IMG/VR virus record: IMGVR_UViG_3300020215_000020
Coordinates: 1-44,360 of that record
Length of the DNA: 44,360 nucleotides
Reading direction: 5' to 3' (one strand)
Origin: a virus
A program made the translations under genes and the position numbers. Positions 1-19,160 of this stretch are shown here, piece after piece. Below the pieces are notes generated by a model that worked only from the letters and a program-made list of their open reading frames with translations, made no database searches and was not told the origin of the DNA. Every line of letters begins with the position of its first letter. Position 1 is the stretch's first letter.

Positions 1-127
1 CACTTTGTCGACTTGGCGACCGTCCACCACCTTCGCCTTGAGGAGAAGCGTGCGGTACTTCAAGCGGGTGTTCTCCCCAACGAGCTCGTCCACCTCGGCG
101 GTCGAGAGGTTGTTGACCACGATGTCG
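1..127. repeat. Terminal redundancy, left copy
   Basis: Bases 1-127 are identical to 44234-44360. The repeat lies inside one continuous reading frame (portal), so it is best read as the overlap of a closed circular assembly. The exact length of 127 equals a common maximum assembler k-mer, which favours an assembly artefact over a biological terminal repeat. True unit length would be 44,233 bp. Confidence 0.93.
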
Positions 128-1530
128 GCCATGAGGCTGCCGTACTGCACCATGCTCTCGGCAAGGGTCTTGCCAGTGCCAAGGATGTTCTTGCGGGCGT
201 TGTTCTCGGCGACGGCAATCGCCGTGGCCTTCGTGGACGCCGGCGGGAGCTGCCCGGCGGAGGTCTCCGAGAGGGAGCTCTCGTCCATCGACGCTTCCGT
301 CTCGCGCATGGCGCGGAACATGGTCTCTGCGCCCCCCGGCTGAAGGAGCGGGAAGGCTTTCGCCTGGTCGTTCTTGAAGGTGATGGTCGCCGACGGGAAG
401 ATCACCTCGCTATCGATCTTGTCGTCCACGCCGCTGAAGCCCATCGGCATGTTCGCCTCAAGGAAGGCGCGGTTCATCGCGAGCTCGTACTGCGCGTCGA
501 TGAGCCGGTTGTCCCAGTACTGGCTTGCCATGAGGGACTTGTAGAAAAAGAAGTGCTCGGTGATGCGGTGGTAGCCAAAGGGCACGAGGTTGTATTTGGG
601 CGCTCCCCGGTTATCGCGGTGGCGCATCGGATTGTGCTCGATGTCTTGCTCTGACCCGCCGTCGTCCAGCCGGCCCATGTAGATGCCGTTGACGAAGCAC
701 ACCTCGGTATCGTCGCGCCGGTTCTTGTACGTCACCTCCTCCACCAAGGTCGGGTGATCCTCGTCCTTGATGTCGTAGAAGAGGCCGTCGTCGTCGCTGT
801 AGAAGGTCTGCACGCCCGGCTGCACGTGCTCGAAGTAGGGATGCCAGCCATAGCGGGCCTCCGCCTCCCCGTACTCGATGAACTTGCGGGTGATGTTGAA
901 GCGGTGGCGCTGGATGTTCTGATCGTAGGCGTTGGCGATAAGCACCTGGTCGGCCGAATAGACCGGGGCGTTGTAGCCGGAGAGCACCTCGTCAAGGATC
1001 TCGCGCTTGGTGAGGCCCTCGTCGGTGCGCTCCTTCACCGTCTGGTACACCTGGTTCCACTCGGCCCCGAGATAGGTCACGGGGTTCACGAGCATGCCCA
1101 TCGAGACAGCGAGGAAGGAGCTCTTGTAATTGGAGTTGTGGCCGAGCCACTCGACGGAGTTGTCCATCATCTCCGAGAAGTCGCGATCCTCCTCGTCGTC
1201 CTCGTTCTGCGCCAGGAAGGACGGGAAGATGTAGCCGGCGGTCAGCTGGGCATGCAGCGCGGTCGCCTTGTTGCGGGCCTTGCTCCTGGTGCCCCGCCAT
1301 TTCCACGCCTCAGCGGGGTCCTCCTCGCCCTCGTCCACGAACGCGTTGAACGTTCGCTGGCCGCGGTTCATGTCCTCGATCACGCTGCGATTGTTGAGCT
1401 CCTGCCAGGGCCGGTGCAGGATTTCGTTGCCGTAGCCATAGTCCTTCTGCACGCCCGCGGTGAAATCAGCGACAGGCTTCGAGGGAGCGTAGGCGGAGAT
1501 AGCGGAGGAGCTGGTTTTCTCTCCAATCAT
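1..1530 (-). CDS. Portal protein, N-terminal 510 codons (gene crosses the circle join)
   Basis: An ATG at 1530 opens a frame that stays open to base 1 and continues at 44233 down to the stop at 43760, giving about 667 residues in the closed circle. The size fits a podoviral portal, the dodecameric ring through which DNA enters and leaves the head. It lies directly downstream of the large terminase, as portals usually do. Family assignment rests on position, size and the acidic/aromatic character of the translation, not on a recognised motif. There is no Shine-Dalgarno sequence. A TATAAT-like box lies on the minus strand at 1541-1546, about 10 bases before the ATG. Confidence 0.8.
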   Translation of the reverse strand, partial: MIGEKTSSSAISAYAPSKPVADFTAGVQKDYGYGNEILHRPWQELNNRSVIEDMNRGQRTFNAFVDEGEEDPAEAWKWRGTRSKARNKATALHAQLTAGYIFPSFLAQNEDDEEDRDFSEMMDNSVEWLGHNSNYKSSFLAVSMGMLVNPVTYLGAEWNQVYQTVKERTDEGLTKREILDEVLSGYNAPVYSADQVLIANAYDQNIQRHRFNITRKFIEYGEAEARYGWHPYFEHVQPGVQTFYSDDDGLFYDIKDEDHPTLVEEVTYKNRRDDTEVCFVNGIYMGRLDDGGSEQDIEHNPMRHRDNRGAPKYNLVPFGYHRITEHFFFYKSLMASQYWDNRLIDAQYELAMNRAFLEANMPMGFSGVDDKIDSEVIFPSATITFKNDQAKAFPLLQPGGAETMFRAMRETEASMDESSLSETSAGQLPPASTKATAIAVAENNARKNILGTGKTLAESMVQYGSLMADIVVNNLSTAEVDELVGENTRLKYRTLLLKAKVVDGRQVDKV

Positions 1531-1540
1531 GGATACTTAA

Positions 1541-1546
1541 ATTATA
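1541..1546 (-). promoter_or_regulatory. Possible -10 box before portal
   Basis: Minus-strand TATAAT, AT-rich in a GC-rich genome, lies 11 bases before the portal ATG in the 60-bp gap after terL. No convincing -35 hexamer is visible. Similar TATAAT boxes occur on the minus strand at 3990-3995, 7483-7488, 16031-16036 and 36520-36525. Confidence 0.3.
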
Positions 1547-1589
1547 GATTGCGCAACGGCGTAATCCCCAACGCAAGGTGTGTACAACT

Positions 1590-3038
1590 TCATCGGCGAT
1601 TGTAGCTCTTCCACGTTGGCCGATGCACGTTGACGCCCTTCATCTTCACGCTCGATGCGTACTCAAGGCGCATGCGCATCATGGCGGTGTCGCTAAAGTC
1701 GGGTGAGCGACCGAGCGCCTCCTTCACCTCCTCCTTGGACAAGACGCGCAGCCTGGTGTCGGTCGTCGAGGTCTTGGATTTGATGTGCTCAAGCTCCTCA
1801 ATGAACATGTCGCGCCACACCTCCTGGGTCAGGCCCGGCACCTCGGAGACGAACTGCCCCTCGTCGATCCGGATCGCCATTTCGTGGCGGTTGATCTTCT
1901 CGGCGAGCTTGTAGGAGCACTGCGCTTTCACGCTCGCGAAGTTCTCCTGCTCGTCGTTATCCGGGTGCTCAAGCGCAGGTGAGTTGGCGATAAATCCCTG
2001 GATGCCGCGCATCTGATCGATGACGCCGCCGCCGATGCCGTCCTCGTCCGCGATGATCTGGCTGTAGGGAATACCCTCCCTGGCCGCGATCTCCTTGGCC
2101 TTGGTGGCGGTGACGGCCGTGTCCTGGCGCTGGTAGATGCGCACGCCGTACAAGCGCCAGCCCTTCCACAGGTAGATGACCGTCTTGTCGACGCCATGCC
2201 GGGCCACGTCGATCGACATGAACCGGTCCTCGCTCTCTGGCACGGTGTTCGTGAACAGGTCGATGGCCGCATCGCTGTCGATGAGCGTCGCTGGGTCGTC
2301 GTCGTAGTCGAAGGAGCCGAGCTTGAGACGCGCCCGCATGGCCGGGTCTTTGATGCGGTCGAGCTGCTTGCCGTAGATGTCCTTGGTGTGCGGATTGTCG
2401 TCGTAGAACGCCTGGATGAACACGATGTCGGGCGCGAGCGTGCCGTCCCTCCACTGCTTCCAGATGCGGCGAACCCAGCCCTTGTTCGGGTTGTAGGTGT
2501 AGAGCGTATCGGGCTTGGCGATCCGCTCCTCTTCCTGGCCGGTCTCAGGGTTGATGCCCCTAAAATTGTTGTGCCGGCCGATGCGGGACTGAAGGATGTC
2601 CACCGCCATGAAGGGCACCTCGCCGGCCTCGTCGATCCAGCCGTCGGTGTACTCAAGGGAGCCGAGCCGTTCGTACATGGGATCGGAGGGCTTGTGGCTG
2701 AGGTCGAGAAGATCGATGCGGCTGCCGTTCCAAAACTCGATGTAGTTGTACTGGCCGTTCAGGTGCCAGAGCGCCGGGTCCACCTTGTGGAAGGCCACCA
2801 CCTTTGTGAACGTGACGTAGCTCGTCGCCATGAGGCGCTTGAGCTCGTTGCGCCCGATGAAGCTCTTGTAGCCGGGGTAGTGGATCGCACGCGCTAGCCG
2901 GCTCTCAGCGCCTAGCCATGACTTCCCGCCGCCGGCAGCGCCGCCGTAGTGGATCTCCGCGATGTTCGGGTCTTGGAGCGCCTGCCAAGCAAGGTACTGC
3001 TTGGGGTTCGGGTGTATATCAAGGGCGCGGGGCTCCAT
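1590..3038 (-). CDS. terL: Terminase large subunit
   Basis: ATP-driven motor and nuclease that packages phage DNA through the portal. The 482 residues contain a Walker A motif GGAAGGGKS at 32-40 and a Walker B-like WIDEAGE around 134-140. The C-terminal RNase H-like nuclease has acidic residues in SIDVARHGVDKT (D277), IIADEDGIGGG (D331/D333) and SPDFSDTAM near the end. Length and motif order are normal for the family. The start overlaps the preceding small ORF by 20 bases and has no Shine-Dalgarno sequence, suggesting translational coupling. Portal follows 60 bases downstream. Confidence 0.95.
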   Translation of the reverse strand: MEPRALDIHPNPKQYLAWQALQDPNIAEIHYGGAAGGGKSWLGAESRLARAIHYPGYKSFIGRNELKRLMATSYVTFTKVVAFHKVDPALWHLNGQYNYIEFWNGSRIDLLDLSHKPSDPMYERLGSLEYTDGWIDEAGEVPFMAVDILQSRIGRHNNFRGINPETGQEEERIAKPDTLYTYNPNKGWVRRIWKQWRDGTLAPDIVFIQAFYDDNPHTKDIYGKQLDRIKDPAMRARLKLGSFDYDDDPATLIDSDAAIDLFTNTVPESEDRFMSIDVARHGVDKTVIYLWKGWRLYGVRIYQRQDTAVTATKAKEIAAREGIPYSQIIADEDGIGGGVIDQMRGIQGFIANSPALEHPDNDEQENFASVKAQCSYKLAEKINRHEMAIRIDEGQFVSEVPGLTQEVWRDMFIEELEHIKSKTSTTDTRLRVLSKEEVKEALGRSPDFSDTAMMRMRLEYASSVKMKGVNVHRPTWKSYNRR

Positions 3039-3222
3039 CGTGGATGTCGCGCTGGCGGCGAAGAGTGAGAATGGCCGCGTCGAGCTGCTCTGCGGTCAAT
3101 TGCCCTGAAGGGATGCAGCGCAGACACACGTGACCCCAGAGGGCACGTCGAAGCATGCACATGCGGTAGGCGAACGTGATGTGCGGATTGGATAGCGCTA
3201 CCCGCAGGAGGAAGAGGTTCAT
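3019..3222 (-). CDS. Small ORF between terS and terL
   Basis: A 67-residue protein with three cysteines and a basic, arginine-rich character. Its ATG overlaps the terS stop by four bases (ATGA) and its 3' end overlaps the terL start by 20 bases. This arrangement suggests it is translated and may couple terS and terL translation. No family is recognised. It could be a chance ORF bridging the two terminase genes. Confidence 0.5.
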   Translation of the reverse strand: MNLFLLRVALSNPHITFAYRMCMLRRALWGHVCLRCIPSGQLTAEQLDAAILTLRRQRDIHDGAPRP

Positions 3223-3800
3223 GCCTGCTGTGACGGATGAATATTAATCTGCGTGAAGTTCTGCACGAGCGTACCTGGCGGCCCTTTATCGTCACCCGTG
3301 CGCTTGCGCAGTTCGTTATAGACCTGGATCGCCTTCACCTTCGGCGCGAGGTCGTGATCCTGAACAATGACCTTGGCAAGCTCGGCGTCCACGATCTCAT
3401 CGGAAAGAAGGGTGTTTCGGAGCTTCACGATGTAGCTCTGAACCTCAGCATTCGTCAGCAGACGGTGGGCGTTTGAGCTGCACACGCTCGATGCCCGCTC
3501 GTAGCTGCTGTCGCGAATGACCTTGGTTGGTTTCCCTTCGTCGTCGAAGTCCCACACCGCGTCATCCTTAGGATACTTGGTCTCATCGTCTAGGTCGTAG
3601 CCGTAGGCGAAGGCGTACGCGCGCGTGGCATTGTTCCGAAGCTCGTCGTTGAAGACGAAGTACCAACAGAACATCTTCTGAGCTTCGTTCAGCGTCGTGG
3701 TGATCGCCTGAATGTCAGCCAAGCTGTAGGGAACAAGCTCGGTCGAGACCGGCTGCTCCTTCGTTTTACTCTTTGGCTTGGATGCTGTCTTTGCTGGCAT
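3219..3800 (-). CDS. terS: Terminase small subunit
   Basis: DNA-recognition subunit of the packaging motor. The 193 residues have a Lys-rich N-terminus, then a helical region with the pattern seen in small terminases: NNATRAYAFAYG, followed by a serine/alanine segment and LLTNAEVQSYI. The C-terminal region would mediate oligomerisation or contact with TerL. Position immediately before terL supports the call. An insertion rich in Asp (about residues 70-95) separates the two conserved helices. Confidence 0.8.
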   Translation of the reverse strand: MPAKTASKPKSKTKEQPVSTELVPYSLADIQAITTTLNEAQKMFCWYFVFNDELRNNATRAYAFAYGYDLDDETKYPKDDAVWDFDDEGKPTKVIRDSSYERASSVCSSNAHRLLTNAEVQSYIVKLRNTLLSDEIVDAELAKVIVQDHDLAPKVKAIQVYNELRKRTGDDKGPPGTLVQNFTQINIHPSQQA

Positions 3801-4262: not shown

Positions 4263-5984
4263 CTAGCCCTTGTCGGTGAGCATCGCCTCCTCGAACTGCT
4301 GGTTGCGCATCACCTCTGCGTAGTCCTCGTTCTCCTTGATCATCCCGTGCTGGCGGGCCTGCCAGTACGCGATCTGCTTGATGGCGTCGGCCACGGCCTG
4401 GTAGCCCTCGGCCGGGCTCTTCTCGCGGAGCTCGGGGATGCAGATGTCGGTGGTGATCATGGTCGCGGCGATCGACACGCCGTGCTCCACCGCAAGCCGG
4501 ATGACCTTCGCGGGATCGATCACGTCCTCACCGATGTCGAGCTTGCCGCCTGCGTTCTTCTGTATCTGGTCGTAGGGGGCCTTGAGGCTCTCGGTGAGGA
4601 TGTTCTCGGGTATCTCCTCCGCGATTTCCTTGAGGCAGAGGCCGCCGCCGCGAACGTAGCCCTCCTGAAGAGCGGCCCGGCAGGCGAACACGCCATCCTC
4701 GATCTTGAGCTTGAGGAAGAGCCCCTCCCCCGTGGTCGACTGCCCGACACGGATGATGCCGACAGCCGCAGAGAGGTTCGCGATGCGGCGCTCTAGCTGC
4801 ATCTTGGAGAGGTCGTTCTTGGCCTCGGCCATCTGCTCCTTAAGGATGCGCTGGCGCTCGGAGATGAGGGTGTCGTCGCCCCGCTTCACCTTCTCGCCCT
4901 TCCCGCCGATCAAGATGGCGTCGTCCTTGTTCTCCGTATCCTTGACGACGATCTTCTCCGCGAAACCGAGGTCTTCCTGAACCACGGTGGAGAGCTTCCT
5001 CCCGAGGTCTTTGTTCACGAGCTGCGCGCCCGTGTAGACGGCCAGGTCTTCAAGCTGCTCGGTGCGAAGCGCAGGGCACTTCACGGGGTAGATGGCGCAG
5101 CCCGCATCCTTGTTCGATTTCATGATGCTGGTGAGCACCGTGTTCGAGAAGTCCGGCGCGAAGATCGCAGCCTTGGTGAGCTTCAGCCGATTGAGCACCT
5201 CCACGAACGCGTACACGTCGTCGAGCTTGTGGTTCGTGATCAGAACCGGCACGTCCTCCGCCACCATCTCGAAGCGGCTCGGGTTCGTGAGGAAGGCGCG
5301 GTGCGGAACCTTCGCCGGGTAGCGCATGCCGCGGATGATCTCGGTCTCGATCTCTCCTTTGAAACCGTCGGTCACGTCGATGAAGTTGTCGACGAACTCG
5401 CCGTCAGCGTCCCGTGCGATCTCCCACACCATGCCGGCGACCGTCTTCGCGATGCCCTCGTCCTCGATCCCGATTGAGATGGTGGCGATGCGTTCGAGCT
5501 CCTCGAGTGTCTCGATCTTGGCGGCGCGCTTCCTGATCTGGGCAATCACCACGTCCTTCGCGTCCTTCATCTCCTTGCGAAGGGTACGCACGCCCTTGTG
5601 GCCGGTGCGCTCCTGGCCGGCGACTTCGACCGTCGGGATGTCCTCCTCGGAGAGTTGCCCGAAGATGCGGTTGATGAGGTGCCCCGCGATAACGGCGGTG
5701 CCGGTCGTGCCGTCGCCTGCGAGCTCGTTGGTGCGCTTTGAGGCTTCCACGAAGGCTTCCGCGGCAAGGCGCTCATGCGGGTCCGCCAGAAGGCGGGCGT
5801 TCTCGGCAACGGTGATGCCGTCGTTGGTGATCCTCGGGCCGCGGTTCCAGCCGCGCGGCAGGAGCGCGTTACGCCCCTGCGGGCCAAGGGTAAGGCGCAC
5901 GGCGTCGTACACCTTGTTCACGCCGGCAAGGATCTTGGCGCGCGCCCGTGAGCCAGTGACGACTGCGGTAATCTGATCGGGCAT
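4263..5984 (-). CDS. groEL: Phage-encoded GroEL-like chaperonin
   Basis: A divergent 573-residue group I chaperonin that would fold phage or host proteins in an ATP-driven ring. Visible family motifs are LGPQGRNALLPR, PRITNDGITVAEN, AGDGTTGTAVIAG (D91, equivalent to the ATPase Asp 87), an apical domain from roughly 190 to 380, KIEDGVFACRAALQEG with RGGG after it, and DVIDPAKVIRLAVEHG. Length is slightly above cellular GroEL (about 545). The Gly-Gly-Met tail is absent; it ends in LTDKG. No GroES gene is present, so it would use host GroES or work alone. It sits at the head of the late operon next to the packaging genes. Confidence 0.95.
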   Translation of the reverse strand: MPDQITAVVTGSRARAKILAGVNKVYDAVRLTLGPQGRNALLPRGWNRGPRITNDGITVAENARLLADPHERLAAEAFVEASKRTNELAGDGTTGTAVIAGHLINRIFGQLSEEDIPTVEVAGQERTGHKGVRTLRKEMKDAKDVVIAQIRKRAAKIETLEELERIATISIGIEDEGIAKTVAGMVWEIARDADGEFVDNFIDVTDGFKGEIETEIIRGMRYPAKVPHRAFLTNPSRFEMVAEDVPVLITNHKLDDVYAFVEVLNRLKLTKAAIFAPDFSNTVLTSIMKSNKDAGCAIYPVKCPALRTEQLEDLAVYTGAQLVNKDLGRKLSTVVQEDLGFAEKIVVKDTENKDDAILIGGKGEKVKRGDDTLISERQRILKEQMAEAKNDLSKMQLERRIANLSAAVGIIRVGQSTTGEGLFLKLKIEDGVFACRAALQEGYVRGGGLCLKEIAEEIPENILTESLKAPYDQIQKNAGGKLDIGEDVIDPAKVIRLAVEHGVSIAATMITTDICIPELREKSPAEGYQAVADAIKQIAYWQARQHGMIKENEDYAEVMRNQQFEEAMLTDKG

Positions 5985-8460: not shown

Positions 8461-9042
8461 CTACCGCTCGAACTTGAGCAGGAAGGCCACAGCCTTGTGG
8501 GCAGCCTGCGATGCCTGGATGAGCGCCGCGGTCTTGTCCTCGAAATGCTGAAGCCAGCTGTTGAGGTAGCTGGTGTGCTCGGGGACCTGGTTGATCTTGA
8601 AGTGCGCGCACAGCATCGCCGCGCCCATCTCCGCAACGAGCTCCTCCATCGCGTAGGTGCGCGTGCCTTTCTCGCCGCCGGCCGGTCGGTCCAGCTGGTG
8701 CCCGGTCCAATGCACGAGCTCGTGGAAGAGGGCTGAGTGATAGGCGTCGAGGCTGCCGATAGACGAAAGCGGCGGTAGCTTAATGACGCTCTGGCGGTCC
8801 GTCGTGCGGAGGTAGCGGGGTACGCCCTCTTCGTGGATGAAGGTGATCTTGAGCTTCCGCGCAAGGCTCAGGACTTCAGGCATGGCCTTGAGGTCGTCGG
8901 TCGGCCTCGTCGGTGGGTTGCGCTGTTCAAAGCGCTTGACCGCAACACTGGCGCGGGCGGCGATGCGCTCCGCCTCCTCCATGTACTCCTGACGGGTGAA
9001 GCCCCGCGGGATACGGACCACTTCAGTCATAAGCGTGACCAT
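8461..9042 (-). CDS. ArdC-like zincin metallopeptidase domain protein
   Basis: About 193 residues. The sequence FHELVHWTGHQLDR contains the HExxH zinc-binding site, and EELVAEMGAAML follows as the third-ligand region. SYLNSWL near the C-terminus completes the pattern of the C-terminal peptidase domain of ArdC/TraC-type antirestriction proteins. The N-terminal single-strand-DNA-binding domain of full ArdC is missing, so an antirestriction role is only possible. The start is uncertain (9042 or 9030, no Shine-Dalgarno), but starts further 5' would fall in the DUF932 terminator. Confidence 0.8.
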   Translation of the reverse strand: MVTLMTEVVRIPRGFTRQEYMEEAERIAARASVAVKRFEQRNPPTRPTDDLKAMPEVLSLARKLKITFIHEEGVPRYLRTTDRQSVIKLPPLSSIGSLDAYHSALFHELVHWTGHQLDRPAGGEKGTRTYAMEELVAEMGAAMLCAHFKINQVPEHTSYLNSWLQHFEDKTAALIQASQAAHKAVAFLLKFER

Positions 9043-9055
9043 AGCCGAAAATGAG

Positions 9056-9082
9056 CACGCCCCCAATAAGCGGGGGCGTGAA
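9056..9082 (-). terminator. Terminator of the DUF932 gene
   Basis: CACGCCCCC-AATAAGC-GGGGGCGTG, a 9-bp perfect stem, followed on the minus strand by TCATTTTC. It starts two bases after the DUF932 stop. Confidence 0.75.
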
Positions 9083-9083
9083 G

Positions 9084-9830
9084 TCACTCGGCCGGAGCCG
9101 GAAGCGCGAGCGGCGTCGCCACCGGTTCGCAGATGCCGTCGATCACCTGGTGCAGGGTCTGCGTCAGCTGGGGAGCTTCGGCCACCTTGCCGCGGAGCGC
9201 GTAGGTCACGGCGTTAAAGGCCCGCCACGCCGTCGGATCGCCCCAGTCGTAGGGAGGCCGTTCATAGGCATCCACCACGTCTGCGATCCTCGTCACGTTG
9301 AGCGCGCCGCGCCGATAGAGCTCGATCACGAGATGATCGAACTCGTCGAGCTCAAGCGGCCGGTTCTTGTAGGCCTCGATCGTACAGGCTTGCGCAATGC
9401 GCCGTTCCTGCAAGGGCTCGATGATGCCGGCGACGATGCCGGGAAGATCCCGCTTGGCGTTGGCGGTGTGCTTGCGCTTCACCACCACGTCGCCAAGGAA
9501 GGCGAGATTATCGCAAACGAACGTGCGCGAACCATGAGCCAGCGCCACGGGAAACGACTTGTCGTGGCTGTTCCGCATCCCGAGGATGTCGGTGTAGTCG
9601 CCGTACGGGGACTTCAGGCTCATGACACCGAAGAAGCGAGCGCCGTCGGGTGTGACGCCGAAGCTCTCCTCCACGATCTCGTGGCCGTAGAAGCCGAGCG
9701 AGTAGCGCACCATCTCGACGAGCTGATGATGCGGCAGCGGAACGTGAGTGCTGGTAGCCGCGGGCGTTTGGACCTGGCGCAGAGCGTCGAAGTCAACGGC
9801 CGCCGCCCCTGCATGAAGCATGAGGGTCAT
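9084..9830 (-). CDS. DUF932 (phage/plasmid-like) protein
   Basis: A 248-residue protein with the features of DUF932/phage-plasmid-like proteins: FFGVMSLKSPYGDYTDILGMRNSHDKS and TFVCDNLAFLG in the middle. The family is frequent on plasmids, integrative elements and phages; its activity is not established. GGAG lies 8 bases before the ATG at 9830. It sits between the ArdC-like gene and an XRE regulator. Confidence 0.85.
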   Translation of the reverse strand: MTLMLHAGAAAVDFDALRQVQTPAATSTHVPLPHHQLVEMVRYSLGFYGHEIVEESFGVTPDGARFFGVMSLKSPYGDYTDILGMRNSHDKSFPVALAHGSRTFVCDNLAFLGDVVVKRKHTANAKRDLPGIVAGIIEPLQERRIAQACTIEAYKNRPLELDEFDHLVIELYRRGALNVTRIADVVDAYERPPYDWGDPTAWRAFNAVTYALRGKVAEAPQLTQTLHQVIDGICEPVATPLALPAPAE

Positions 9831-10300: not shown

Positions 10301-10954
10301 TCAAGCGCGCCGCTTGAACGGCACGAGGTTGGTCTTCAGCTGCGGCGGTAGGTGGATGTCACCCTCCACGGCAATGAAGCATTCCTCGCCGGTCTGCGGG
10401 TCGTAGGCCCGGATCGCGACCTTGCCCCGATGGATGCCACGCGGTGCGTAGCCGACCCCGAAGGCGCGGAGCCTCTCAGGATCACCACCGGCTCCCGTGA
10501 GGAGCTCGTGCTCGTAGTCGAGGCCAGCGGCGTACCTGGCAGGATCAAACCCACCGGAGGGTTGGGGGGAAGCTTTCGCCTCCCCCCGAGATTGGGAGGC
10601 TTTCGCCCGCCCGCTCTCTGGCTCGCTCACTGGAACAGTACGTCTACGGGTACTGGTACTGTTACTAGTACCGTTCCCCTCAAAGCCGGCGAGACGCGCG
10701 AGCTCGAACGCCGCATCGCGCATGCGCATGTCGAGGACGTGCGCAGTGAGCGCGATCTGATCGCCCCCGGTCTTTGCGCCCTGGCAGTAGAACCCCTGCC
10801 CTGGCGTCACCACGAGCGCCCGGTGATCGCCGCGTCCGCAGGGACACGGGCCGCGGAACACATTGCCCGCGAGCTTCAGCTTGAGGTCGAGAAGATCGAT
10901 AGCATCGGCGAAGGACACGGCGTCCTTCACCGCCTTGAAGTCGATGAAGGGCAT
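10301..10954 (-). CDS. CHC2 zinc-finger primase-like protein without TOPRIM
   Basis: 217 residues; start 10954 is chosen for GGAGG nine bases upstream. Residues about 30-80 resemble the DnaG zinc-binding domain: PCPCGRGDHRALVV then GFYCQGAKTGGDQI. The usual CxxC of the second knuckle reads CQGA, so one expected cysteine is replaced, while the first knuckle has CPC. A low-complexity Thr/Ser/Arg linker follows, then LRAFGVGYAPRGIHRGKVAIRAYD, resembling the start of a DnaG RNA-polymerase domain, but no TOPRIM acidic motif follows. It may recruit or regulate host primase. Whether it can prime is doubtful. Confidence 0.7.
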   Translation of the reverse strand: MPFIDFKAVKDAVSFADAIDLLDLKLKLAGNVFRGPCPCGRGDHRALVVTPGQGFYCQGAKTGGDQIALTAHVLDMRMRDAAFELARLAGFEGNGTSNSTSTRRRTVPVSEPESGRAKASQSRGEAKASPQPSGGFDPARYAAGLDYEHELLTGAGGDPERLRAFGVGYAPRGIHRGKVAIRAYDPQTGEECFIAVEGDIHLPPQLKTNLVPFKRRA

Positions 10955-11043
10955 CGCTGCCTCCTGTTGCTGTCCACACCCATGATACCGCGCCGCCTTG
11001 ACGGGGTGCTTCAATGGAAGGTGGACAACCAAAGGAGCCTGCG

Positions 11044-11379: not shown

Positions 11380-12333
11380 TTAGGGCTTGGTGATGTCGAC
11401 GTAGCCGGCGACCGTCTGCCACGGAGTGAAGAGCTCCTTGATAGTCTCGCGAGGAGCCTTCCACGTCTTGCGGTGAAATTGGGGGAGCGCCTTGAAAAGG
11501 ATGCGCTCCGCATAGGGTTTGCCCTCAAGGTACTTGAGGCAGGTATCGATCCGGCCCTGGCTGGTGGTGATGAAGAGCGCGCGAAGGTTCGGCAGCCCCC
11601 ACGCATCCTCATAAAGCCGCAGCCCGCGTACCTTGGTGAAGAGCCACAGGAAGTTGTCGAGCTTCTCCTTGTTCGAGGTGCCCTCCTTCTCTCTTCGTGA
11701 GAAGGGAACGCCCCCGCGGTCATGCTCTCGCACGTAGAAGTCATGGCCCTCGGCGACGTGCAGACCCATGAGCGCGTCCGGCTCGTACTTCCTACCCTCA
11801 TATTCGATCTGTAGCGGGTTCCATGCGGGCCGCGTCACGTGCTTTGGGGTCGTGGGGAAACGATCGTGGAGGAAGATCTCCTCGTGGTGGACTGCTTCAA
11901 AGCCGTGCTCCGGGCCGTCGAGCTCGAAGGTCGCGCCGATCGAGGAACCCATGCCGCGATGGCGCTTGTCGTCCCGCTGAGGGATAGCAGGAGCCTTCGT
12001 CGGCACGAGGCCGCTAGCTACTTCCGAGTTTTCGTACCACGCCGGCTCGGCGCTCGGCGGCGCAGCGGTGAGCTCCCACGGCCGGACTAGCATCGGACCC
12101 TCGACCGGGGTGTTGTCGGGGAGGAAGACCGACTTCTCATGCGTGAGCCACTTGGCCCGGTCCTGAAACGACTGAAGAAGACCGCCGTAGAAGCGGGCAG
12201 CGAGTGCAGTCGGGAGGCAGGGGTACCGGCGCAGCCCTCGAAAGAGGTTGAAGTCCATCTCATGAAGACGCACCTCCTTCCCCGTGGACTGCGGGATGTG
12301 GTGCTTCCTCCTACCATCAGCGTATTTCAGCAT
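11380..12333 (-). CDS. Replication-relaxation (Replic_Relax)-like protein
   Basis: 317 residues. The N-terminus VRLHEMDFNLFRGLRRYPCLPT looks like the winged-helix start of replication-relaxation family proteins, which supports the ATG at 12333 although no Shine-Dalgarno is visible. The second half has the nuclease-like pattern EPDALMGLHV, DFYVREHDRG, SNKEKLDNFLWLF and RALFITTSQGR. Family members are encoded on conjugative and integrative elements beside DNA-translocating ATPases, as here (ATPase gene 100 bases upstream). Their exact activity is unclear to me; a DNA-processing or relaxosome role is inferred. Confidence 0.7.
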   Translation of the reverse strand: MLKYADGRRKHHIPQSTGKEVRLHEMDFNLFRGLRRYPCLPTALAARFYGGLLQSFQDRAKWLTHEKSVFLPDNTPVEGPMLVRPWELTAAPPSAEPAWYENSEVASGLVPTKAPAIPQRDDKRHRGMGSSIGATFELDGPEHGFEAVHHEEIFLHDRFPTTPKHVTRPAWNPLQIEYEGRKYEPDALMGLHVAEGHDFYVREHDRGGVPFSRREKEGTSNKEKLDNFLWLFTKVRGLRLYEDAWGLPNLRALFITTSQGRIDTCLKYLEGKPYAERILFKALPQFHRKTWKAPRETIKELFTPWQTVAGYVDITKP

Positions 12334-12433
12334 AGATGCGTGGATAGCGCCGCACCGCGTGCACGTAACCGTTTCGCATGAGCGTAGATGAGCAAGATGC
12401 GCCGCAGTGCTGGCGTATGATCACGCCATTATT

Positions 12434-14455
12434 TTACCATTTGCGGCTGAACTCTTGGCCGCCCTGGTGTGGATCAAACGGACCTTGGTCTTCAGGCGTT
12501 TCGGCAGCCATCGCCACAAAGGGCTTGCTCTCTGGAAAAGTGAGGGAGACACGAGCGCGGTTGCGCTCGATGATGCCATCGTACGCATGGTGCGCGAGCT
12601 TCGGGATGTGCCGGATTGGGCCAGCTTGCACAGGGATGGAAACGGCCTGGGGCGTCACGCCACGAATGTGTGCAGCGAACTGAAGGCGCGGCTGGTCGAG
12701 AATGTAGTCAGGCGTCGTCCGCATCTCGGCCGCAAAGCTGCGGGCATCTGCCGCCGACACCTGGGAAACGAACTTGATGCCGGTGGCCCCGAGGAGCGAA
12801 GAGCGGAGCGCCACGCTCGCCTGCCCTAGGTACTGGAACGCGAAGACGCACGAGCACCGGAACTTGCGTACCTCCGTAAGGAGGTCGTCCATGTGCTCCG
12901 AGAAGTAGTCGGACGCCTCGTCCACGATGAGCACCGTGTCCTTGCGCTGCCCAGACGGGAGCACCGCCCGCTCCATGAGGTTCTGAAGGATGAGGCTGAT
13001 GAAGAGCCTGCCGAAAATGGCAGAGCCATCCTTCAGGTAGCCCTTGTTCGTATCGACAAGGATGACGTAGCCGTTGTTGAGGGCGTGCCAGAGGTCAACC
13101 TTCGTCTCCGGCGAGCTCAAGAGCCGCGCCATGACCGGGCTCGCTAGGATGCCCTTCAGCCGGTAGCCAACCTCCTCCTTCGTCGAGCGGAACTGCCCGT
13201 TCTTCGGCAGGAAATCTTTGATGAAGAAGGACTTGGGGATGGGTGGCATCACCTCGATCACGTCCATGAACTTCTCCCCGTTCTCAAGGAGGTCGAGGAG
13301 GTCGAGGATGGTGGCATTGTTGCCCCGCACGTCGGGGAACGTGAGCAGGAGGTCGGCGCAGTAGGTGAAGAGGATTTGCTGTTTGGAGGTCAGCTGCGCC
13401 GTGTCGCCGGCGAGCGCCGAGAACAGGAACGTGAAGGTCTGAATGACCGAGGCCCGCACCTGCTCGCGGGTGTGGGCGTCGTACCTCGCGTGCCGTTCGC
13501 GGGGTATGGCGAACAAGTTGAGCGCAGGGGTGTCCTGCGGGTTGATGTAGATGATCCGGTCTTCGATGCCGAGGTCGGCGTGCAAGAGCGCCTGCACGAG
13601 ATCCGAGTGAGGCTCGACAACCACGATTGAGGGGCGCTCGGGCGACTTCAGGTCGTGCATGATGAGGTGCTGAAGGAGCGAGGTCTTGCCCGCCCCCGGC
13701 CCGCCGCAGACCATGACGTGCTGCATCCGGTCTTCAAGGGTGAGCTTCAGCGGCACGGGCGTCATGAACAGGTCATAGAAGGGAGTACCGCCGAGGTAGC
13801 TCTCCACCATCACGTCGAGCGGGAAGTTGCTCTCCCGCGCGTGCTTCCACGGCTTCTTGCTGTCTTCGCTGTCGCGGCCGGATACCTTGCAGAGGTTCTC
13901 ATAGAGCCGCTCGGCGATGGGTCGAAAGAGGCCGCGCGAGAGGTAGCGATCATCGAGAAGCGTGCCGTACATGCTCTCCACCATGAGCGCCGGGTCAGGC
14001 AGCGCGTAGACGAGCGGAATGGTGAAGGGCGACGGGTCCTCGCTCTCGGGAAGCTCGCGGGCGAGGCCGAACAGGCAGCGCACGAGCCCCTCGTGTACGA
14101 GCTCCAGCAAGGCGTCCTGGTTCGCGTAGAAATACTGCTTCGCGTACAGGAGGTTTCGGTACTCCACGAACTCCTGAAGGTTCATCCGGCCGAAGTCCGG
14201 CGGCGGCAGTTCGGCGAGGTACTTCTCGGCCGAGAGGATGTCGAACATGGCGTAGGCGAGCGCATCGCGCAGCGGCTTGCTCATGCCGTCAAAGTGGGCG
14301 TAGACCCTTTGGCCGATGGCAACCTCGGGTTCCTTCAGCCGGTTCTCGCATTGGCTGACGGAGAGGTAGAGCTTGCGCGTTTCCTCAAGCTCCCGCTCCC
14401 GTTCGCTGCCGCCCAAGCGCCGGAAGAGCGGGGTGTAAACGGACGGCTTGTCCAT
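12434..14455 (-). CDS. VirD4/TraG-HerA-type DNA-translocating ATPase
   Basis: 673 residues. An N-terminal region of about 240 residues with no recognised domain precedes a RecA-like motor. It has Walker A GGPGAGKTS at 251-259, VVVEPHSDL after it, Walker B TVLIVDEA at 507-514 and the C-terminal FAFQYLGQASVALRSSLLG with SAADARSFA typical of TraM-recognition/HerA proteins. Such ATPases couple DNA to type IV secretion or pump DNA. No membrane anchor is obvious at the N-terminus. The phage already has TerL, so this is a second DNA motor. Its ATG overlaps the stop of the upstream 220-residue gene. Confidence 0.88.
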   Translation of the reverse strand: MDKPSVYTPLFRRLGGSERERELEETRKLYLSVSQCENRLKEPEVAIGQRVYAHFDGMSKPLRDALAYAMFDILSAEKYLAELPPPDFGRMNLQEFVEYRNLLYAKQYFYANQDALLELVHEGLVRCLFGLARELPESEDPSPFTIPLVYALPDPALMVESMYGTLLDDRYLSRGLFRPIAERLYENLCKVSGRDSEDSKKPWKHARESNFPLDVMVESYLGGTPFYDLFMTPVPLKLTLEDRMQHVMVCGGPGAGKTSLLQHLIMHDLKSPERPSIVVVEPHSDLVQALLHADLGIEDRIIYINPQDTPALNLFAIPRERHARYDAHTREQVRASVIQTFTFLFSALAGDTAQLTSKQQILFTYCADLLLTFPDVRGNNATILDLLDLLENGEKFMDVIEVMPPIPKSFFIKDFLPKNGQFRSTKEEVGYRLKGILASPVMARLLSSPETKVDLWHALNNGYVILVDTNKGYLKDGSAIFGRLFISLILQNLMERAVLPSGQRKDTVLIVDEASDYFSEHMDDLLTEVRKFRCSCVFAFQYLGQASVALRSSLLGATGIKFVSQVSAADARSFAAEMRTTPDYILDQPRLQFAAHIRGVTPQAVSIPVQAGPIRHIPKLAHHAYDGIIERNRARVSLTFPESKPFVAMAAETPEDQGPFDPHQGGQEFSRKW

Positions 14456-15117
14456 CAGTAGGTCGGCTTCTTCTTCCGCATCCCAATCGGTGCAACGACC
14501 ATCCCCTCATCGACAGATTGGGACGACGGTTCAGGGACCATCGCCGCCTGTTCGAGCGCGGTGAGCGGTCGCTCGGGCATAGGCGGCGGCAGGCTGCCGA
14601 TGAGAGGTTCTGGAACCGGCGCAGGCGGAGGCTCGTCAGGGGCAACGAGCATCGGTGCCGGTGTCACCGCCTGGGCAACTACCTCCGGCTTGCCGGTGGC
14701 AAAATCAAAGAGCATTTCCCGCCCATCAAACGTCGCGGCGGTTTCCAGGTAGCCCCGAAGGTTCTGGCAGGCCGTCATGATGGCCTCCTCCGCTCCGAGG
14801 AGCTCGTCCAAGCTCTTGCACTCGATGTGCTGGCCGCGCGCGAGGCTCGCAATCGAGATGTTGAGCCGCATGGCGGCCAAGGCGCTTAGGCCGAGGCTCT
14901 TCAAGCTGCCGACCATCGAGCCGTCGCGCACAGCGTCACCTTTGTCGAGATACCGCTTGGCGGCTTCGCTGTTGTAGATGACCTGGTTCTGAAGCTTGTA
15001 ACGGTTGATGCTATTCGCCTCCTCCGGCGTGAAGCCGACGCGAGCATCGAGGCAGAAGATAACCTGGTCCTTCATGACGCCGCCCTCGCGCTGAGAGCGC
15101 TTTATTTTCAGCTGCAT
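14455..15117 (-). CDS. Unknown partner protein of the ATPase module, 220 residues
   Basis: Strong GGGGAGG before ATG 15117. Residues 1-140 form an ordered domain (IFCLDARVGFTPEEANSI, then YNSEAAKRYLDKG); residues 150-210 are proline-rich and probably disordered, ending in basic MRKKKPTY. The stop overlaps the ATPase start, indicating a shared operon and probably stoichiometric expression. No family recognised. Confidence 0.7.
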   Translation of the reverse strand: MQLKIKRSQREGGVMKDQVIFCLDARVGFTPEEANSINRYKLQNQVIYNSEAAKRYLDKGDAVRDGSMVGSLKSLGLSALAAMRLNISIASLARGQHIECKSLDELLGAEEAIMTACQNLRGYLETAATFDGREMLFDFATGKPEVVAQAVTPAPMLVAPDEPPPAPVPEPLIGSLPPPMPERPLTALEQAAMVPEPSSQSVDEGMVVAPIGMRKKKPTY

Positions 15118-15161
15118 GGTCGCCTCCCCGACATGGAGGGGAAACCCGCGTTACGGGACTG

Positions 15162-15959
15162 TCAAGCTGGCGGAGCCCGCTTGATGGCGAGGTCGATGTA
15201 GGTGGTGTGGCCCTCGCTGCCGCGCGGATGGCCGGCATGGACCGCAAGTTCTGCGGCGTCATCGGGATTGCAGAGGCTCGGGATACGGGTCTCCTTGGTA
15301 GTGCCGGCGAGGAGCGCGTTCTTCATCTCGTCGGTGAGCTCGTCGAAGAAGTTGACGCCTGCCAGAAGCCTGCCCTGCGTGATGAGCTGCCGGTGCGCAG
15401 GGATCGCGTAGCGGCCAAAGTCGGTGATGACCACCTGGCCGGGGTACTGGTTGATCGCCATGTTCGCGAGGACGAAGCACACCCGGTCCCCGAGCAGGGA
15501 AGGGTCCAGCCGCATGACGATGGTGCCCGTAAAGGACAGGCGGGTGCCCCGGTTAAGGACACGCTCAAGGACACGGTACAGGAGGAGCCGCTCGATCTTC
15601 TCGTAGGCGTCCTTTTGGTAGATGTCCTTGTTGTCCTTCGGCGGCTGAATGAGGGCCTCAAGCCGTGGCTTGTTCGCGAGCAGCGCCTTGAAGATGAGGT
15701 GGTTGGAATAGCGGCTGGTGAGGGTGGTCTGTCCTTGAGGGAAGGCGGCATCAAGGACTTCAAGGAAGGCGTCGGCCTTCGTGTCGTACATGTCCGAGAT
15801 GGGGTTGAAGCTATGCTCGGCCGGATCGAAAACGGTCACGTGTGCGTGGCCGGAAAGGTCGAGTGTGTCGATGAAAATTCCGTCGTCGATGATGAGCGCC
15901 GGATCGGAAATGTGGTGCGAAAGGGGCGTTTTATCACGCCCGATGGCGAGTACGCTCAT
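15162..15959 (-). CDS. Probable catalytically dead VirD4/HerA-like ATPase paralogue
   Basis: 265 residues from ATG 15959 (start uncertain; no good Shine-Dalgarno, and the frame is open upstream through a palindrome). The segments VTVFDPAEHSFNPI and VVITDFGRYAIPAHRQL followed by AGVNFFDELTDEMKNALLAG and CNPDDAAELA follow the order of motifs in VirD4/TraG/HerA motors (DP...NPL, Walker B, sensor region, DA..LA). There is no Walker A, and the Walker B acidic pair DE is replaced by DF. It is two genes upstream of the active ATPase and may be a structural subunit of the same ring. The assignment is my own alignment by eye. Confidence 0.6.
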   Translation of the reverse strand: MSVLAIGRDKTPLSHHISDPALIIDDGIFIDTLDLSGHAHVTVFDPAEHSFNPISDMYDTKADAFLEVLDAAFPQGQTTLTSRYSNHLIFKALLANKPRLEALIQPPKDNKDIYQKDAYEKIERLLLYRVLERVLNRGTRLSFTGTIVMRLDPSLLGDRVCFVLANMAINQYPGQVVITDFGRYAIPAHRQLITQGRLLAGVNFFDELTDEMKNALLAGTTKETRIPSLCNPDDAAELAVHAGHPRGSEGHTTYIDLAIKRAPPA

Positions 15960-16082
15960 GGGCTGGGAAGAGTAGAGCCCGCGTCGTCCAGGGGTGCTCT
16001 CGCCAGCCCTGAAACAAGGAGCTCCACCGTAATTATACGGCAGAGGTGTCCTTAAGAACGGTAGGTAAGGTAGTTGTCCCCA

Positions 16083-16096
16083 TGTCCTATAGGACA
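16083..16096. promoter_or_regulatory. Perfect 14-bp palindrome
   Basis: TGTCCTATAGGACA, a self-complementary operator-like site, lies just outside the large nested inverted repeat at 16106-16245 and about 125 bp upstream of the start at 15959. A minus-strand TATAAT box follows at 16031-16036. Confidence 0.55.
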
Positions 16097-16105
16097 GGGA
16101 ATAGA

Positions 16106-16245
16106 CCCACCCGTTTGTCGTTGGACCGTTAGGGCCACGACCCAATGCTTCTAAGACATGTCCGATACGGACTGTCGGGCTCTCGTTTTTAGAGAGCTAT
16201 GAAGCATTGGGTCGTGGCCCCGAGTGGGCCGACAAACGGTGTGGG
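16106..16245. repeat. Large nested inverted repeat (cruciform or structured RNA)
   Basis: Left arm GGGCCACGACCCAATGCTTC (16132-16151) is perfectly complementary to 16201-16220, a 20-bp stem. An outer stem pairs CCGTTTGTCG (16111-16120) with 16230-16239, extended by CCCAC (16106-16110) and GTGGG (16241-16245). The 49-nt loop holds two more hairpins: GACA-T-GTCCG-ATA-CGGACTGTC and GCTCTC-GTTTTTA-GAGAGC. The result is a multi-branched fold with no coding frame. It may be a replication or transfer origin, or a structured RNA upstream of the ATPase module. Confidence 0.75.
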
Positions 16246-16257
16246 AACAGTGGTTTA

Positions 16258-16299
16258 CCGTGGTTAGCCACGGCATGCAGGATATGGTGGCACATGCCG
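16258..16299. repeat. Two further adjacent inverted repeats
   Basis: CCGTGG-TTAG-CCACGG at 16258-16273 and CGGCATG...CATGCCG at 16271-16299 overlap by three bases. They continue the palindrome cluster between the large inverted repeat and the 56-residue gene. Confidence 0.6.
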
Positions 16300-16313
16300 C
16301 GGAGCGTGCCGTG

Positions 16314-16549: not shown

Positions 16550-16747
16550 TCAGGAGCCGGTAGAGGCGGTTACGTTGAAGCGGGCCTTTTGCCACGCGTC
16601 GACCTTGCTCTCACGCCATGCGATGCGCCCGCTGCCAAGTCGTTCCGGTTGAGGGAACTCCCCTTCGCGAACCAAGCGCATGATGTGAGCGCGAGAATAT
16701 CGAACGTAGGTCGAGACCAACTCCTTCATCGTAATCAACCGTTCCAT
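16550..16747 (-). CDS. AlpA-family excisionase/regulator
   Basis: 65 residues with the MerR-like winged-helix pattern of AlpA/phage Xis proteins: ITMKELVSTYVRYSRAHIMRLVREGEFP followed by GRIAWRESKVDAWQKAR. Such proteins bend DNA at att sites and direct excision, or activate integrase transcription. The start at 16747 has GGGAG upstream. It lies immediately downstream of the integrase on the same strand. Confidence 0.85.
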   Translation of the reverse strand: MERLITMKELVSTYVRYSRAHIMRLVREGEFPQPERLGSGRIAWRESKVDAWQKARFNVTASTGS

Positions 16748-16788
16748 CACGGTACTCCCGTTAAAGGAGCATCGCGATGCACCGGGCG

Positions 16789-17889
16789 TCATGCCCGGAT
16801 GAGCAACCATACCAAAGCCGCTTCGATCCTCAAAAGCGCCGCTCGTTTCTCGTCGATGTACGAGTACTGGTCGTAGATGTCGTCGAGCGCTTTGGGTGCG
16901 TGGTTCATGAGCATCTCCGCCATGTCCCGCGACACGCCGACCCGGCCACATAGGCTGCGGAAGGTTCGCCGTAGATCGTGGGGCGACCATCCGCTCGTGC
17001 CGGAGCGCTTCTGCACGCTCTCGACAACGAGGGAGAGGCCGCGCGGGGTAAGGTGGCCTTGCCCCCACCTGCCGGGAAACACATGGCGATGGTTGTGCTG
17101 GGGTAGGACGTGAGCCGCGAGCGGGCCGATCGGTAGCGAATGCGACCGCCCGTTCTTGGTGTGGGTCCCTGGTATGGTCATGACCCCCTGGAATGCCCAG
17201 GATTGCTCCAGCATGGCCGTCTCGCCCCTGCGGGTGCCCCAGAGGAGCATGAGCCTCACGGCGGCGTCTGAGCGCTCCGTACAGGCGTACCAGACGGCCT
17301 GGATCTCCTCATCCGAGAGTATGCGGGTTTTCCGCTTATCCCTGGCCGGGGCCTCGTAGCCCTCCATAGGCGAGTGCTTGAGGTAGCGACGCGGGGGCCG
17401 CAGGCACCACCGGAAGAAGGTCCGCAGATAGCGGAAGAGGTGGAGCTGCTCGCTTGGCCGATCCGCGAGTTTGTCGAGCACCCGACTGAGGTGCTGATCG
17501 TCGATGTCCGCGAGCTGCATCGCCTCAAGGGTGGTGCAGTGCTTCGTGAGCGCTCGCGTGACCTGGTACTTCGTGTTCGCGCCCTTGCCCTCGTAGTGGC
17601 CGGCAAGGAACTCGTCCCGCGTTTCGCGGAAGGTGCGACGAACGGGCCGGGGCTCGTTGTCGTTGGCGAGGAGCTTCTTCGCCTCCGCCCGCGCCTCAGC
17701 GAGGGAAAGGTCGGGGTACTTTCCGATGGTCACGAGGTCGCGCGTGCGGCCCCGCATGCAGACCCACGTCTTCGTGTGCTTGCCCACGCGAATGCCAAAT
17801 CCGCGCGTGTTCTTGCACATGTAGCGGATGGGACGGTCGCCGCCTTTGAGGCCGCGCACCGACACGTCAGTGAGATGCACGACCGGCAT
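16789..17889 (-). CDS. int: Tyrosine integrase
   Basis: Site-specific recombinase that inserts and, with Xis, excises the phage. Start 17889 is chosen for AAGGAG seven bases upstream, giving 366 residues. The N-terminus (LTDVSVRGLK, IRVGKHTKTWVCMRGR, LVTIGKYPDLSLAEARAEA) is the DUF4102-type arm-binding domain. The C-terminal catalytic domain shows the Arg in LLWGTRRGETAML, HDLRRTFRSLC, NHAPKALDDIYDQYSY with the nucleophilic Tyr. All expected residues are present. The attP site lies 160-200 bp upstream. Confidence 0.95.
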   Translation of the reverse strand: MPVVHLTDVSVRGLKGGDRPIRYMCKNTRGFGIRVGKHTKTWVCMRGRTRDLVTIGKYPDLSLAEARAEAKKLLANDNEPRPVRRTFRETRDEFLAGHYEGKGANTKYQVTRALTKHCTTLEAMQLADIDDQHLSRVLDKLADRPSEQLHLFRYLRTFFRWCLRPPRRYLKHSPMEGYEAPARDKRKTRILSDEEIQAVWYACTERSDAAVRLMLLWGTRRGETAMLEQSWAFQGVMTIPGTHTKNGRSHSLPIGPLAAHVLPQHNHRHVFPGRWGQGHLTPRGLSLVVESVQKRSGTSGWSPHDLRRTFRSLCGRVGVSRDMAEMLMNHAPKALDDIYDQYSYIDEKRAALLRIEAALVWLLIRA

Positions 17890-17893
17890 CGCA

Positions 17894-17988
17894 TGTCTCC
17901 TTTTTGTCTCCAAATCCCAAGGAACTGGGACTGGACACAGTGTACCGCCATGAGCACCCGGCTCGGGCGAGACAATCAACAGAGACAA
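17894..17988. promoter_or_regulatory. Integrase arm-type sites, integrase side
   Basis: Repeated heptamer TTGTCTC and its complement GAGACAA: TGTCTCC at 17894-17900, TTGTCTC at 17904-17910, GAGACAA at 17969-17975 and 17982-17988. The same heptamer occurs twice on the other side of the core. Such pairs flanking a core are typical of tyrosine-integrase arm sites. Confidence 0.6.
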
Positions 17989-18548: not shown

Positions 18549-19130
18549 TCAAGCCGTCGCGGGCGAAACCTGTGGACGACGACGCAGAGCTGCTCCGGCA
18601 AGCCCGAACCCGCCGATCATCAAGGCCCAGGTGGAGGGCTCAGGGATCGCGGCCGTTTGAGTGTACGTGCGGAAGGTGGCGTCGAACTGTGCAAGCTCGG
18701 TGTCTCCCGCGAAGTAGGTCCCGAACGCGTAGCTGTCAGAGAGGGTGCCCGCCACACCGGCGTAAGTAGCCCCGTCAAGGTCGATGGTCAGCCGATACGT
18801 CACACCGGTCGTGGCCATCACGGGCGTCCAGAACGCCTCGGCCCACTGCGGTTCGTTGTCAGCGAGCGTGACGCCGCCGGAGGCAAGCTGCGTCGAGCCG
18901 TCCCACAGGCCAATGATGAACGAGAGGTCGGTGCCGATGGTGTTGGCGAGGAAGAAGCCGCCGCCCGCGATGTTGCTTGCCGAGGTCTCAAAGGTTTGGC
19001 CGGCCGGAGCGCCGGAGAGCCCGGCTATCCCGGCGTCGTTTTCAAGCTGCGCTTGGTCAACGACAAGCGCGGCGTGCGCGGCGGTTGAAACACTAACCGC
19101 AGCGGCAGCCAGGAGAAGCGTCTTGAGCAT
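18549..19130 (-). CDS. Secreted PEPxxWA-CTERM sorting-domain protein
   Basis: 193 residues from ATG 19130, which follows AGGGGG. The N-terminus MLKTLLLAAAAVSVSTAAHA is a clear Sec signal peptide. The C-terminus has PEPSTWALMIGGFGLAGAA, a transmembrane helix, then RRRP: the PEPxxWA-CTERM variant recognised by exosortase-type enzymes in alphaproteobacteria. The middle is beta-rich (about residues 25-160), resembling a carbohydrate-binding-type lectin fold only in general character. Expected fate: export, processing by a host exosortase, surface or extracellular matrix location. No exosortase is in the window. It looks like a lysogenic-conversion cargo gene, divergent from an XRE regulator. Confidence 0.9.
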   Translation of the reverse strand: MLKTLLLAAAAVSVSTAAHAALVVDQAQLENDAGIAGLSGAPAGQTFETSASNIAGGGFFLANTIGTDLSFIIGLWDGSTQLASGGVTLADNEPQWAEAFWTPVMATTGVTYRLTIDLDGATYAGVAGTLSDSYAFGTYFAGDTELAQFDATFRTYTQTAAIPEPSTWALMIGGFGLAGAALRRRPQVSPATA

Positions 19131-19160
19131 GGTGCCCCCTCGAAATCCGGAGAGCACTGA

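Follow-up and report, generated by a model that had tools for sequence, protein, structure and literature searches.

A recurring gene module beside a forked palindrome in a temperate tailed phage suggests a DNA-processing system borrowed from conjugation

As vehicles of DNA transfer, phages and conjugative elements tend to be seen as two separate worlds. In conjugative elements, the usual arrangement of an origin of transfer (oriT) and its mobilisation genes is a palindrome, an accessory protein, a coupling ATPase and a relaxase, as in oriT-trwA-trwB-trwC of R388. The MOBC relaxases are related to PD-(D/E)XK proteins, and their prototype TraX has an N-terminal winged helix-turn-helix (wHTH), with no covalent intermediate seen (PMC12857230); the Replic_Relax domain PF13814 is listed among MOBC relaxase domains as Rel_PF13814/MobC (PMC5357655 Table 1). 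In our study, a gene module was analysed in a viral record of 44,360 bases (IMG/VR record IMGVR_UViG_3300020215_000020; its whole length is called the window), where it lies between the integrase and the DNA-packaging genes. With confidence a little better than even, it is read as a conjugation-derived, relaxosome-like module in a temperate tailed phage. The initial annotation had described here a TerL-carrying phage with a second DNA motor of VirD4/TraG-HerA type, a probable dead paralogue of it, a replication-relaxation-like protein, a co-translated partner and a palindromic element just upstream; all four minus-strand genes are present.

11380 to 12333, minus strand: P0004, Replic_Relax (PF13814)/MOBC-like protein of 317 amino acids, assigned by an iterated hidden Markov model (HMM) and the PF13814 matches of its homologues
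12434 to 14455, minus strand: P0001, TraG/VirD4-HerA-type ATPase of 673 amino acids (Pfam AAA_22/TrwB_AAD_bind)
14455 to 15117, minus strand: P0003, partner of 220 amino acids, its gene overlapping the ATPase gene by one base at 14455
15162 to 15959, minus strand: P0002, pseudo-ATPase of 265 amino acids, assigned by profile alignment to intact second TraG-type ATPases
16111 to 16239, no strand: T/Y-shaped palindrome, with flanking pairs extending to about 16106-16246

P0001 has the VirD4/TrwB-type nucleotide-binding domain of a type IV coupling protein with both Walker motifs intact (Walker A GGPGAGKT at residues 251-258; Walker B region DEASDYF), in agreement with its description as a second motor, and is 33% identical to two plasmid homologues; for the ATPases of the Sulfitobacter and Methylomagnum plasmids the identity is about 34-35%. 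Viral contigs scanned with P0001 alone gave no match, whereas a three-sequence ATPase alignment used as query recovered relatives there. Judged by its conservation and position, P0003 is a conserved partner of this motor. The HMM of P0003 matched 65 open reading frames (ORFs); almost every one immediately precedes an ATPase gene, an arrangement seen at about 60 loci. The N-terminal part of P0003 (about 145 residues) is conserved and its tail is proline-rich; a homologue of 48% identity is found on a Bradyrhizobium plasmid. The predicted fold had no match in the PDB, and the partner alignment was too diverse to serve for scanning.

The claim of a dead paralogue holds in part. P0002 lacks the P-loop region and with it Walker A, and its four-member profile aligned with the intact second TraG-type ATPases of about 400 residues at E 5.7e-6 over 253 columns (hhalign), more strongly than with the P0001 family; BLASTP of P0001 against P0002 gave nothing. 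These alignments support P0002 as a Walker-A-less relative of a second TraG-type motor, and not of P0001 as had been supposed. P0002 relatives were found in L012, G003, G002 and G437, so that the degenerate form is seen in four viral records (these three G records and the window) and in L012. An intact motor stands at the palindrome-side position in the islands L089 and L037 and in genome G345 (Walker A GKSGVGKS, GQTGMGKS and GKTGVGKT). This small sample suggests that the phages may keep a motor-dead version of the second motor.

Pfam and PHROG searches made directly on P0002, P0003 and P0004 gave nothing useful, and the replication-relaxation character of P0004 was confirmed through its relatives. 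P0004 aligns with a Sulfitobacter replication-relaxation protein, whose gene immediately follows that of the ATPase there, and joins that family in the iterated HMM at 3.1e-33. Its homologues match PF13814 at 1.8e-16, 1.9e-11 and 3.2e-6, with bit scores above the cut-off (G437 27.8, L010 44.8, P0006 61.2). By this route, through homologues only, membership of P0004 in Replic_Relax is clear at the level of sequence. All 31 members of the alignment (A8) share H125, P185-D186 and E203, with R206 nearly as constant; this gives an invariant PD..E motif together with H125, and the K of PD-(D/E)XK has no clear position. The AlphaFold2 model is a confident one (predicted local distance difference test 83.5, predicted template modelling score 0.84) and has a helix-helix-helix-wing N-terminus, with a predicted wHTH at about residues 25-78, and a mixed alpha/beta C-terminus. 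Its best Foldseek neighbours in the PDB were XisH and the nickase N.BspD6I (E 0.07-0.2), followed by MarR-type wHTH proteins. The Foldseek matches, though weak, belong to the PD-(D/E)XK-like fold, and with its predicted wHTH and PD..E motif P0004 fits the MOBC relaxase signature.

A motor beside a PD-(D/E)XK-like protein may also recall a HerA-nuclease type of system that serves defence or superinfection exclusion, and PADLOC gave a mad8 match to P0001 at 5e-14. That match reflects general motor similarity, being obtained with every TraG relative tested. No further component of a known system was matched among the module proteins, and the linkage of integrase and palindrome also speaks against defence, which we regard as very unlikely despite the defence-like cargo (methyltransferase, multiubiquitin/ThiF) on island relatives. 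Membership in the MADS/HerA systems was rejected, as the companion genes were not matched and the likeness is confined to mad8-type and HerA-type motor similarity. Multiubiquitin/ThiF-type genes lie near the module in L020 (around 1-3400) and L002 (26295-28633), which suggests defence-like cargo.

The partner-ATPase-Replic_Relax set recurs at about 60 loci on plasmids and chromosomal islands, the islands forming most of the relatives. Hence, on the points that could have overturned the initial annotation, namely unrelated protein families or a gene set never found together elsewhere, the families are right and the set recurs. Genes in related loci were called by a simple longest-ORF rule, and a single PHROG served to look for TerL near the island copies. 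Five phage records or prophages (the window, G002, G003, G437 and the G017 prophage) have Replic_Relax and ATPase genes next to packaging genes. G003 (39.8 kb) has a TerL of the same PHROG as the window and runs from Replic_Relax through ATPase, P0002 and palindrome to integrase; no partner gene was found there. In G437 (39.1 kb), which was found via the palindrome alone, integrase (48%), palindrome, P0002, partner, ATPase (51%) and Replic_Relax are followed by a CHC2 protein, a Terminase_3 TerL and a portal-like gene. The G002 order is integrase, partner, ATPase with a transmembrane domain (TMD), Replic_Relax and TerS, with P0002 elsewhere. The chromosomal G017 prophage has integrase (42% to that of the window), a TPR gene, ATPase, Replic_Relax, a CHC2-like gene, TerL and a portal-like gene. 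From these gene orders, the module is a component that such phages carry repeatedly, as opposed to an accidental insertion.

Two variants were also observed. In L090, one frame of 906 residues (1-2721) fuses a TraG-type ATPase with Replic_Relax, and the opposite strand encodes an intact second ATPase. A chromosomal class (L014, L020, L021, L022, L026 and L030) has the second ATPase, the partner and an ATPase of about 900 residues with an extra C-terminus of about 200 residues, and no recognised Replic_Relax.

The plasmid copies bear on a further explanation, plasmid-type maintenance, in which the module would partition or resolve a plasmid prophage and the palindrome would be a centromere-like site. 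The module does occur on the Methylomagnum and Sulfitobacter plasmids, and the accounts of Bacillus Tyroviruses and of Novomoskovsk/Bolokhovo read the ATPase and replication-relaxation pair as plasmid-like functions (PMC9703825, PMC9658697). We nevertheless consider it improbable, since an integrase stands beside the module in the window and its relatives, the G017 copy sits in a chromosome, chromosomal islands make up most of the relatives, and neither ParA nor ParM was identified beside the module in the window.

The palindrome is the strongest hairpin of the record, in keeping with the element described upstream of the module. It consists of a 10-bp outer stem, an asymmetric internal loop, a 20-bp perfect inner stem (arms 16132-16151/16201-16220) and two small terminal hairpins. 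Its folding z is -10.1 against 200 shuffles, none of which was as stable; it is the best inverted repeat in the whole 44 kb and the sole one of such size, and forms the most stable 150-nt stretch (-55.3 against -42.4 kcal/mol for the next). Two-stem palindromes with a forked top were found in seven loci (the window, G003, L012, L089, L037, G437 and G345), sharing the outer stem, an asymmetric bulge with a CTCAC-like left side, a perfect inner stem and a branched top. In all seven the palindrome is on the module strand in the same orientation, about 100-220 nt 5' of the P0002/second-ATPase gene.

On 1.13 Mb of shuffled sequence, the palindrome descriptor gave one weak match. Among viral contigs the pattern was matched three times, once by a real element (G437), and among 385 genomes twice, both real and one being the already known G005; each of the two new loci had the expected gene downstream. 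The matches L103 and L105 were rejected as chance, having neither the two-stem architecture nor module genes. Compensated two-sided differences were counted in 22 of 29 stem columns, with arms taken by hand from the folds and chosen as paired, so that the count shows compensation and is not an independent test of pairing. A covariance model was not built because MAFFT misplaces the 3' arms. G-T pairs make up 7 of 553 stem pairs, and this near absence points to a palindrome acting as DNA rather than RNA.

It is also conceivable that the palindrome is unrelated to the enzymes, and that it serves the P0002/second-ATPase operon as operator, attenuator or 5' leader, or the neighbouring integrase as a folded att site. 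Its place about 100-220 nt ahead of that gene, and downstream of int in the loci that show both, would suit such roles, and its two stems round an unpaired centre resemble folded single-stranded recombination sites such as attC and CTX attP. The scarcity of G-T pairs argues against the RNA versions, as does the Rfam result, in which no family reached the gathering score and only miRNA models appeared, far below threshold. An att site fits poorly with arms that are unlike dif by eye and with L012 and L089, where, within contig reach, the palindrome is 1-2 kb from int and faces away from the host flank. We hold this explanation unlikely. An Frpo-like single-stranded DNA promoter, a CTX-type forked attP and attC were weighed as identities and not adopted, the likeness being one of outline architecture. 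Rhodobacterales-type islands, too, have large palindromes with a branched form, which lie a few kb ahead of the module (L045 3144-3265; L064 191-304; L081 2703-2855; L073 2385-2497; L052 1017-1140) and in several cases have arms resembling GAAAACGGGTTTTGCC; their layout is related to that of the window palindrome, of which they are at most candidate relatives.

The action of a MOBC-like relaxosome at the palindrome, whatever its use, is slightly favoured by us, because the module recurs, PF13814 is a MOBC domain, the P0004 model and PD..E motif fit, and the palindrome is conserved 5' of the P0002/second-ATPase gene in a layout that is that of oriT and its mobilisation genes. Several points weigh against it. 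The palindrome is absent in G002 and the G017 prophage, though motor and Replic_Relax are kept, so it does not always adjoin the module. It is nearest to the second-ATPase/P0002 gene and not to Replic_Relax. The structural matches of P0004 are all above E 0.05 and hence supportive only, and the Replic_Relax HMM had no match in the CloDF13 record, where no long intact mobC frame was found.

From gene content and site we infer the following working, in its nicking, loading, direction and use alike. P0004 would bind and nick DNA at or beside the palindrome when this is extruded or single-stranded. P0001 would assemble with P0003 and the motor-dead P0002 and load at the palindrome, after which its motor may drive or unwind the nicked strand, and the neighbouring CHC2 protein may help priming. 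Inside the cell, the tentative use is to replicate or process the circular phage DNA, starting from a nick, before it is packaged. Such internal processing is favoured because neither motor nor partner has a membrane anchor and no VirB4 lies near the module. By hydropathy, P0001 has no N-terminal transmembrane segment and P0003 none at all, so the anchor of a type IV coupling protein is missing from both; no VirB4 was seen near the module in the genomes of 50 relatives (places compared by eye).

Conjugative mobilisation of the window phage is possible and is the close rival, rated somewhat lower: the palindrome would be an oriT, and the excised phage circle would move through the type IV secretion system (T4SS) channel of a co-resident conjugative element. 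Gene content and order agree with this, as do streptococcal integrative mobilisable elements (IMEs) with PF13814 and VirD4 (PMC5357655, PMC12479173), for which such mobilisation is proposed; for CloDF13 it is shown. Among relatives the anchor is on the ATPase, with an anchorless partner, in 26 loci and on the partner instead in 11, never on both under the threshold used; the remaining loci have none, many being of the longer Replic_Relax-free class. The G002 phage ATPase retains its anchor, whereas those of the window, G003, G437 and the G017 prophage have none, and the TMD of the CloDF13 coupling protein MobB is essential for mobilisation (PMC7431656). Further, no T4SS genes were found among the part of the window ORFs that was scanned, so the element does not qualify as an integrative conjugative element.

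The surroundings of the module are those of a phage, as had been annotated.

1590 to 3038, minus strand: terminase large subunit (TerL; phrog_979, 6e-18; 32% to G003 TerL)
3219 to 3800, minus strand: terminase small subunit (TerS; phrog_2606, phrog_51)
10301 to 11032, minus strand: CHC2 zinc-ribbon protein with primase-like N-terminal domain (PF01807, 1.1e-5)
16550 to 16750, minus strand: AlpA-like excisionase/regulator (PF05930, 8.9e-10)
16789 to 17988, minus strand: tyrosine integrase (PF00589; phrog_1, 5.5e-48)

With TerL, TerS, integrase, AlpA and a tail fibre assembly match in one record, the source is, by gene content, a temperate tailed phage of bacteria. A CHC2 protein follows Replic_Relax in G003 and G437 as well, and similarity to the G003 gene places one after Replic_Relax in G002 and the G017 prophage too. 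Other neighbours are a divergent phage GroEL/Cpn60 just upstream of TerS (4263-5984, minus strand; phrog_5725 1.3e-75; PF00118 best over residues 26-256), a PEP-CTERM protein near the integrase (18549-19157, minus strand) with a 46% identical copy beside the G437 phage integrase, and a zincin metallopeptidase domain of the type seen in ArdC anti-restriction proteins (8461-9087, minus strand; PF18818 5e-26) whose gene adjoins that of a DUF932 protein (9084-9830). Anti-restriction of the ArdC type is a typical leading-region function.

Hence, the earlier observation is confirmed, on firmer ground than it was first given, and its interpretation partly supported; the module suggests a nick-and-pump way of processing DNA that was taken over from conjugation. 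That a tailed-phage lineage uses a conjugation-type relaxosome at a forked hairpin, with a motor-dead TraG subunit, as the start of replication or transfer is a more speculative proposal; if true, the same element could enter virions and also be processed, possibly even moved, in single-stranded form. With a relaxase-motor module that recurs between integrase and terminase in several phages and has a recognisable DNA site, phage nicking at a conjugation-type origin becomes directly testable, and the forked palindrome is a sequence handle for finding such elements, its scan alone having recovered two unseen ones.

In comparison to the described systems, the Sulfitobacter mediterraneus plasmid NZ_CP081110 and Methylomagnum pRS11DPr5 likewise hold partner, ATPase and Replic_Relax together; unlike in the window, their ATPase has a transmembrane stretch, and the regions examined had no annotated phage genes and no matching palindrome. 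Tyrovirus (Thrax) gp17-gp18 and Novomoskovsk/Bolokhovo share a phage T4SS-type or FtsK-type ATPase with a replication-relaxation protein, whereas these are Bacillus phages with plasmid-like neighbours such as ParM, and the portions examined of their descriptions mention no palindrome, partner or pseudo-ATPase. For Thermus TdtA we know of no Replic_Relax pairing. The transjugation of TdtA/ICETh1 is alike, by description, in having a DNA-donation ATPase on a mobile element (PMC5365140). From the MOBC systems (CloDF13 MobB/MobC, pAD1 TraX and the streptococcal Rel_PF13814 IMEs) the window module differs in its terminase-bearing phage, its ATPase without TMD and its extra partner and Walker-less second motor, and no sequence link of P0004 to CloDF13 MobC is shown. 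What is shared with them is a PF13814 protein, with wHTH and PD-(D/E)XK-like parts, beside a VirD4-type ATPase and, in CloDF13 and the streptococcal IMEs, a life without a T4SS of their own.

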